Source: Cytophagaceae bacterium (GTDB lineage Bacteria; Bacteroidota; Bacteroidia; Cytophagales; JAIYAX01). Taken from it: DNA of 64,000 nt. Where the stretch lies: contig JAIYAX010000018.1 in assembly GCA_027488815.1 (NCBI GenBank), positions 1-64,000 on the forward strand. The letters run 5' to 3'. The notes beneath the pieces were generated by a model. The model was not told the origin of the DNA. It saw nothing but the letters and a program-made list of their open reading frames with translations, and did not search any database. Both the position numbers and the translations under genes were made by a program. Below, piece after piece: positions 45,605 through 45,982 of this stretch. Every line of letters begins with the position of its first letter. Position 1 is the stretch's first letter.

Positions 45605-45630
45605 ATAAAAAAAGCCGCTTGTTGCGGCTT
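45605..45630 (-). terminator. Terminator after tRNA-Val
   Basis: The minus strand reads AAGCCGC, loop AACAA, GCGGCTT, then a T run (45612-45606). It ends the transcript that carries the tRNA-like modules and tRNA-Val. Confidence 0.85.
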
Positions 45631-45635
45631 ATGTG

Positions 45636-45710
45636 TGGGAGCTGAGGGATTCGAACCCCCGACCCTCTGCTTGTAAGGCAGATGCTCTGAACCAGCTGAG
45701 CTAAGCTCCC
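45636..45710 (-). tRNA. tRNA-Val(TAC)
   Basis: A 75-nt cloverleaf: acceptor GGGAGCT/AGCTCCC, discriminator A, D arm GCTC...GAGC, anticodon stem TCTGC/GCAGA with loop CTTACAA (anticodon TAC), T arm GGGGGTTCGAATCCC. CCA is not encoded. It decodes GUA/GUG. Its 5' half is repeated three times immediately upstream. Confidence 0.96.
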
Positions 45711-45936
45711 AATTTTATTCCTCTATCTCAGCGACCCGACCACTCCCGAATGTCGGGATGCTCTGAACCAGCTGAGCTAAGCTCCCAATTTTATTCCTTT
45801 TCTCAGCGACCCGACCACTCCCGAATGTCGGGATGCTCTGAACCAGCTGAGCTAAGCTCCCAATTTTATTCCTTTTATCAGCGACCCGACCACTCCCGAA
45901 TGTCGGGATGCTCTGAACCAGCCGAGCTAAGCTCCC
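45711..45936 (-). repeat. Three tandem tRNA-Val-like modules upstream of tRNA-Val
   Basis: Three head-to-tail units of 76, 75 and 75 bp (45711-45786, 45787-45861, 45862-45936), in the same orientation and with the same period as the tRNA. Each begins with about 29 nt identical to the tRNA 5' half: acceptor strand GGGAGCT and the complete D arm through GAGCAT. The 3' half is replaced by a hairpin, TCCCGA-CAT-TCGGGA, then GTGGTCGGGTCGCTGA and an A-rich spacer. No T arm or 3' acceptor strand exists, so the units are not functional tRNAs. Units differ only in the spacer and one D-loop-side base in the outermost copy. A second pairing, CCCGAC with the later GTCGGG, competes with the hairpin. Confidence 0.9.
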
Positions 45937-45951
45937 TTTAAAATCGGACTG

Positions 45952-45982
45952 CAAAGGTAGCGGTCGATTTCAAAAATACAAA
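45952..45982 (-). promoter_or_regulatory. Promoter of the tRNA-like array and tRNA-Val
   Basis: TTTG (45982-45979), exactly 19 bases, TACCTTTG (45959-45952): a full match to the Bacteroidota consensus. The predicted start is about 10 nt before the first tRNA-like module, so the modules and tRNA-Val should share one transcript ending at the hairpin near 45612. Confidence 0.8.

Follow-up and report, generated by a model that had tools for sequence, protein, structure and literature searches.

Tandem half-tRNA units upstream of a tRNA-Val gene in Bacteroidota as probable scars of a SegB-like GIY-YIG element

The window, a stretch of 64,000 nucleotides from a single contig of a Cytophagaceae bacterium, harbours an intact tRNA-Val(TAC) gene which is separated from its promoter by three head-to-tail units of 75, 75 and 76 bp, all on the minus strand (Table 1). 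Each unit proceeds from nucleotides 1–30 of tRNA-Val to a hairpin, TCCCGACATTCGGGA (TCCCGA-CAT-TCGGGA), located where the anticodon arm would be, and from there to GTGGTCGGGTCGCTGA and a short A/T-rich spacer. Identity to tRNA-Val nucleotides 1–30 is 100%, 100% and 97% in the units starting at 45936, 45861 and 45786, respectively. The initial annotation had described three tandem half-tRNA units with this hairpin, flanked by a promoter and a terminator, and direct reading of the sequence agrees on all of these elements. It had also stated that the units lack a T arm and a 3′ acceptor strand. The 5′ part of the T arm is present, as the stump GGTCGGG-TCG against GGTCGGGGGTTCG of the intact gene, and is broken at the T loop; the rest of the anatomy had been read correctly. 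ARAGORN and Rfam did not call the units as tRNAs and report one tRNA at the locus, not four. The units differ from each other by one change in the D arm and several changes in the spacer, to which most of the differences are confined, and the copies are thus distinct and not one misassembled unit, contrary to the assembly artefact that had been considered earlier. No tRNA fragments were found near the two other tRNAs of the window (Pro and Ala), nor was any downstream 3′-half module found at the tRNA-Val locus.

Table 1. Features of the tRNA-Val(TAC) locus in the window.
Feature	Position	Strand	Basis
Promoter TTTG-N19-TACCTTTG, Bacteroidetes-type (TTTG 45982-45979, TACCTTTG 45959-45952)	45952..45982	(-)	direct reading
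Unit 1: tRNA-Val nt 1-30, hairpin (45894-45908), broken T arm, spacer; 75 bp	45862..45936	(-)	
Unit 2: layout as unit 1, hairpin 45819-45833; 75 bp	45787..45861	(-)	
Unit 3: layout as unit 1, hairpin 45744-45758; 76 bp	45711..45786	(-)	
Intact tRNA-Val (TAC)	45635..45710	(-)	ARAGORN; Rfam RF00005 73.5 bits
Intrinsic terminator AAGCCGC-AACAA-GCGGCTT-T(n)	45607..45630	(-)	direct reading; folds as 7-bp hairpin

The palindrome is rare in this genome. In the window, TCCCGA-N1-14-TCGGGA matches the three hairpins of the array only (0.01 expected), and the 3.37 Mb genome contains 10 TCCCGA..TCGGGA sites, the three in the array included. A dispersed REP-like palindrome was rejected on account of this rarity, the other sites having the appearance of terminators or of a different repeat. 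One conceivable origin of the array is that such a palindrome was moved into a tRNA copy by a Y1 (RAYT-type) transposase and then amplified, and the genome does encode five Y1 transposase (PF01797) domains (L058-L062), at least two of which look complete, and does hold a few further TCCCGA..TCGGGA sites. We nevertheless consider this history highly improbable, given the scarcity and nature of those sites and the observation that the interior of the palindrome varies between genomes and always replaces a tRNA arm, never adding to one. Of all the readings in the initial annotation, its alternative, in which a small palindromic element struck a tRNA that was then amplified, came closest to the evidence, although this genome does not contain the palindrome as a dispersed insertion element. 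The exact hairpin-tail string of the window gave no match when searched in genome contigs, and the tail is thus lineage-specific. A separate dispersed repeat, ..GTTGCACAACTTGTCCCGATACTTCGGGAACT.., occurs with small variations four times in the genome (C9, C13, C14 and C25; L052-L054 and L056) and resembles an attC-type or cassette-end repeat.

Modules of the same kind are found at tRNA-Val(TAC) across the Bacteroidota and the wider FCB group. A pattern combining the D-loop with CCCG..CGGG was present in 11 of 391 genomes of the same order, most likely the Cytophagales to judge by two members (Cytophaga aurantiaca and Algoriphagus lacus) with loci that recur among named records, while the reversed control gave 0 matches, and a wider contig scan returned at least 118 stretches, nearly all from the Bacteroidota or the wider FCB group; the loci counted include related species and are not independent samples. 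As some of the hairpin is prescribed by the pattern, modules with different hairpins are underrepresented in these counts, and the outer stem carries no evidence of its own. Among the matches listed, a tRNA-Val or a GIY-YIG gene lay within 1.2 kb at 66 of 80 loci. Four matches apparently outside the FCB group (L078, L091, L126 and L132) had neither nearby, as is expected of chance matches. Most tRNA-Val loci of the order are without modules, as seen at 40 loci unselected in this respect, and some genomes carry two to three tandem copies of the intact tRNA-Val gene. The arrangement, whose absence from all close relatives had been named as an argument against it, is accordingly widespread. Tandem upstream arrays occur elsewhere as well, with at least five units of 75–77 bp in Mucilaginibacter X4EP1 and four units of 80 bp in L117, and these two are close parallels to the array in the window. 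The window array shares the tRNA-Val 5′ half, the palindrome in place of the anticodon arm, the end of tRNA homology at the T loop and the upstream position, and its membership in a recurrent class of split tRNAs is, as judged from these sequence comparisons, well supported. Some hairpin modules (L119, L120, L133, L110 and L127) are called by ARAGORN as tRNA-Val, tRNA-Gly or tRNA-Stop(tta), and annotation pipelines may therefore list hairpin pseudo-tRNAs as real or suppressor tRNAs.

The modules of this class are distinctly polar. Upstream modules lie inside the tRNA operon, single ones usually 29–60 nt before the intact tRNA, while downstream modules lie behind the terminator and usually directly after a small GIY-YIG open reading frame. 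Altogether 39 upstream and 47 downstream modules were compared with the intact tRNA of their own locus among the matches listed, of which 35 and 44, respectively, were counted after the window and genomes present twice had been dropped. Of the upstream modules, 30 of 35 retained the 5′ acceptor strand and none the 3′ acceptor strand, whereas of the downstream modules 38 of 44 retained the 3′ acceptor strand and 5 of 44 the 5′ acceptor strand. This pattern is what would remain of one tRNA gene whose two halves had been separated by an intact tRNA plus a nuclease gene. The 5′ acceptor strands of upstream modules agreed better with the tRNA of their own genome (6.2/7) than with those of other genomes (5.1/7). 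Furthermore, 33 of 37 upstream modules (three of the 37 being those of the window) lose their homology to the tRNA of their own locus between -3 and +7 relative to GTTCGA. In the downstream pseudo-tRNAs L032, L035, L037 and L074, a second palindrome (e.g. TCCCGAT..ATCGGGA) is found exactly in the T loop, after GGTTC. The numbers of downstream and upstream modules at a locus are often unequal, with at least five upstream and one downstream in L085, and the arrays thus call for more than simple nested insertion; a strictly nested insertion leaving equal numbers of 5′ and 3′ scars was rejected as not generally seen.

The palindrome itself is one end of this recurrent structure, the 3′ half in related loci being found elsewhere, usually behind the GIY-YIG gene. 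Beyond CCCG/CGGG it continues into further inner pairs (1.84 vs 0.46 when shuffled), and the first inner pair is of Watson-Crick type in 93% of 89 distinct palindrome interiors. In a test of eleven locus pairs compiled by hand, upstream and downstream hairpins of one locus shared 56 inner stem bases as opposed to 25.5 when shuffled, and none of 20000 shuffles reached 56. The two hairpin ends of a locus thus probably have a common origin, and the palindrome structure is, in view of the excess of inner pairing and the likeness within loci, either maintained or repeatedly regenerated. Its formation could be a side effect of break repair, or the palindrome may be a form which the nuclease spares or recognises.

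The split layout is not restricted to tRNA-Val and was also found at tRNA-Pro, -Asp, -Ser, -Lys, -Thr and -Leu. Pieces of the 5′ part precede the intact tRNA for Asp (nucleotides 1–31), Ser (1–14 and 21–36) and Pro (1–46, in tandem), and pieces of the 3′ part follow the nuclease gene for Lys (13–77), Thr (56–74 and 63–75), Pro (45–75) and Leu (41–83). One tRNA-Pro(CGG) locus has its upstream pieces arrayed in tandem at 65 bp, and there the palindrome takes the place of the D arm. The gene order within the element varies, in that the 5′ piece of tRNA-Asp and of tRNA-Ser is separated from the intact tRNA by the nuclease gene. Small GIY-YIG genes of the Bacteroidota (L186-L210, e.g. L189, L191, L197, L201 and L207) adjoin tRNA-Thr, -Pro, -Met, -Asp, -Ser, -Leu, -Lys and -Gly, and partial copies of the same tRNA are often present on the other side.

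Of the loci with upstream modules whose sequence extends 600 bp or more past the tRNA, 13 of 19 had a GIY-YIG gene within 1 kb downstream of the tRNA (14 of 20 before removal of a genome counted twice), compared with 2 of 40 Cytophagales tRNA-Val loci chosen regardless of modules; since these groups are not matched in taxonomic composition or in E-value limit (1e-2 vs 1e-3), the contrast is strong but inexact. The GIY-YIG proteins of split-tRNA loci are about 85 aa in length, and two of them match PF01541 at 1.3e-14 and 5e-16. Conversely, a tRNA was called within about 1.5 kb at 19 of 30 GIY-YIG loci from relatives, although two of these calls are hairpin modules and several of the 30 loci are repeat views of one place. 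In a GIY-YIG tree the label of the neighbouring tRNA changed 21 times (shuffled mean 35, minimum 30), some labels being hairpin modules misread as other tRNAs, and the GIY-YIG genes without a tRNA neighbour fell mostly in one separate clade. In L030 and L028 the GIY-YIG frame runs into the pseudo-tRNA, so that tRNA-derived DNA encodes the C-terminus of the protein (..AGSAHPA and ..SSAGSAHPDL). No Val-type GIY-YIG gene was matched in 50,697 phage records.

The genome of the window encodes three GIY-YIG domains, in proteins of UvrC size, 492 aa and 115 aa, none of them at the tRNA-Val locus, the only place in this genome where tRNA-Val-type sequence was found. The 115-aa gene was considered as a nuclease gene that had moved elsewhere and was rejected, there being no tRNA within 1.4 kb of it. 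The window locus is not exceptional in this regard, as 6 of the 19 comparable loci are likewise without a GIY-YIG gene. The absence of the gene here, along with the genomes that carry two or three intact tRNA-Val genes in tandem, would fit a simple tandem duplication of tRNA-Val and later asymmetric decay of the copies without any nuclease, GIY-YIG genes merely tending to adjoin tRNAs. Such a scenario seems unlikely to us in view of the polarity of the decay, 5′ upstream and 3′ downstream, over many tRNA families and genomes, the clustering of breaks at the T loop, the presence, in place of an arm, of a long GC palindrome that has additional covarying pairs, and the enrichment of GIY-YIG genes at module loci.

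The leader is probably transcribed, since it directly follows a promoter, as do the modules in 22 of 25 module-bearing operons, where TAnnTTTG is found no more than 70 nt upstream (against a background of 0.04 per 70 nt). As a whole the leader folds better than shuffled sequences (z -3.3), and in the predicted minimum-energy fold the 5′ acceptor strand of the first module pairs with the 3′ strand of the tRNA, so some effect on tRNA output is conceivable. Together with the near confinement of differences between copies to the spacer, these observations might favour a functional leader or small RNAs, with half-tRNAs that are transcribed together with tRNA-Val and either serve as decoys for enzymes of processing or modification or alter its folding and output. 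We regard such a function as doubtful. Single modules do not exceed shuffles in stability (z -0.7 to -1.5), the D arm or the acceptor has decayed in L117, L094 and L113, the letters of the hairpin vary between genomes and modules are missing from most tRNA-Val loci of the order. The decoy RNA, RNase P bait and leader switch put forward in the initial annotation found no positive support in these data. The two alternative pairings of CCCGAC proposed there do both appear, but their stability against shuffles is not significant (z -1.5 and -0.7), and an RNA switch between two folds was rejected on this ground.

We favour the explanation that the units are 5′ scars of a tRNA-Val gene which was cut and split by a SegB-like GIY-YIG element carrying an intact replacement tRNA, and that they were amplified in this genome while the nuclease gene is absent; on comparison with the related loci this is the probable origin of the array. 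In many Bacteroidota a small GIY-YIG gene accompanies an intact tRNA-Val(TAC) and is lodged inside an older tRNA-Val copy, the order being old promoter and 5′ part, intact replacement tRNA, its terminator, nuclease gene and old 3′ part. The T loop (GTTCGA) of tRNA genes would be the cleavage site of the nuclease, apparently as for phage SegB, and tRNA copies recombining at the broken site may both install the element, in a form of homing, and multiply short segments. The breakpoint at the T loop is consistent with a nuclease of this kind as the maker of the splits. In the genome of the window, amplification would have raised the 5′ scar to three copies, and the nuclease gene would have been lost along with the 3′ scar, leaving a transcribed and presumably neutral leader; with neither a GIY-YIG gene nor a 3′ scar at the locus, the former presence of the element is deduced from relatives. 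The copies of the array are almost identical, and local tandem duplication is therefore more likely than three separate insertions.

More broadly, the evidence leaves evenly balanced whether these loci represent a new class of chromosomal selfish elements in the Bacteroidota, in which small GIY-YIG nucleases attack the universal T-loop motif, bring a replacement tRNA that lets the host survive and leave polar scars whose 5′ parts develop into tandem arrays. If so, odd half-tRNA repeats of single genomes would be the footprint of a widespread selfish nuclease, which could strike essential tRNA genes because a spare tRNA is supplied, and the small GIY-YIG genes beside many different tRNAs in the phylum would be explained. 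The amplification of tRNAs recently shown for a phage GIY-YIG enzyme would then extend to bacterial chromosomes, and apparent half-tRNA RNAs of this kind may be scars and not regulators.

The array can be compared with several known systems. The rtT repeats of the tyrT operon in E. coli are tandem, co-transcribed units of about 178 bp located downstream, each with a tRNA 3′ end. They resemble the window array in being tandem repeats beside a tRNA gene that each hold a fragment of the adjoining tRNA and are co-transcribed with it, but the units of the window contain the tRNA 5′ half (nucleotides 1–30), are positioned upstream and measure 75 bp, and their class recurs with GIY-YIG genes. Tyrosine-integrase islands split a tRNA gene and supply what keeps the tRNA working. 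The elements described here likewise split a tRNA gene while a working tRNA is kept, as in integrative elements of tRNA genes generally, yet, unlike these islands, no integrase was seen at the loci, a whole extra tRNA is brought along and both 5′ and 3′ scars are left. In a literature search of mostly open-access papers, we found no published description of a split-tRNA/GIY-YIG class, the work on SegB being the only close match. SegB is a free-standing GIY-YIG homing endonuclease of phages T4 and T6 with cleavage motif RAWTSGAAC, whose breaks map inside tRNA genes and which drives tandem amplification of tRNA-containing segments by recombination (PMC13096335). The reverse complement of that motif, GTTCSAWTY, was found in the present analysis to correspond to the tRNA T loop. 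Whereas SegB belongs to phages and amplifies an intact tRNA segment, the genes reported here are chromosomal genes of Bacteroidota without a phage match, encode proteins of about 85 aa and accompany split tRNAs with GC palindromes. Both systems nevertheless have in common a GIY-YIG gene beside tRNA genes, a GIY-YIG catalytic domain, a motif or breakpoint in the T loop and tandem amplification.
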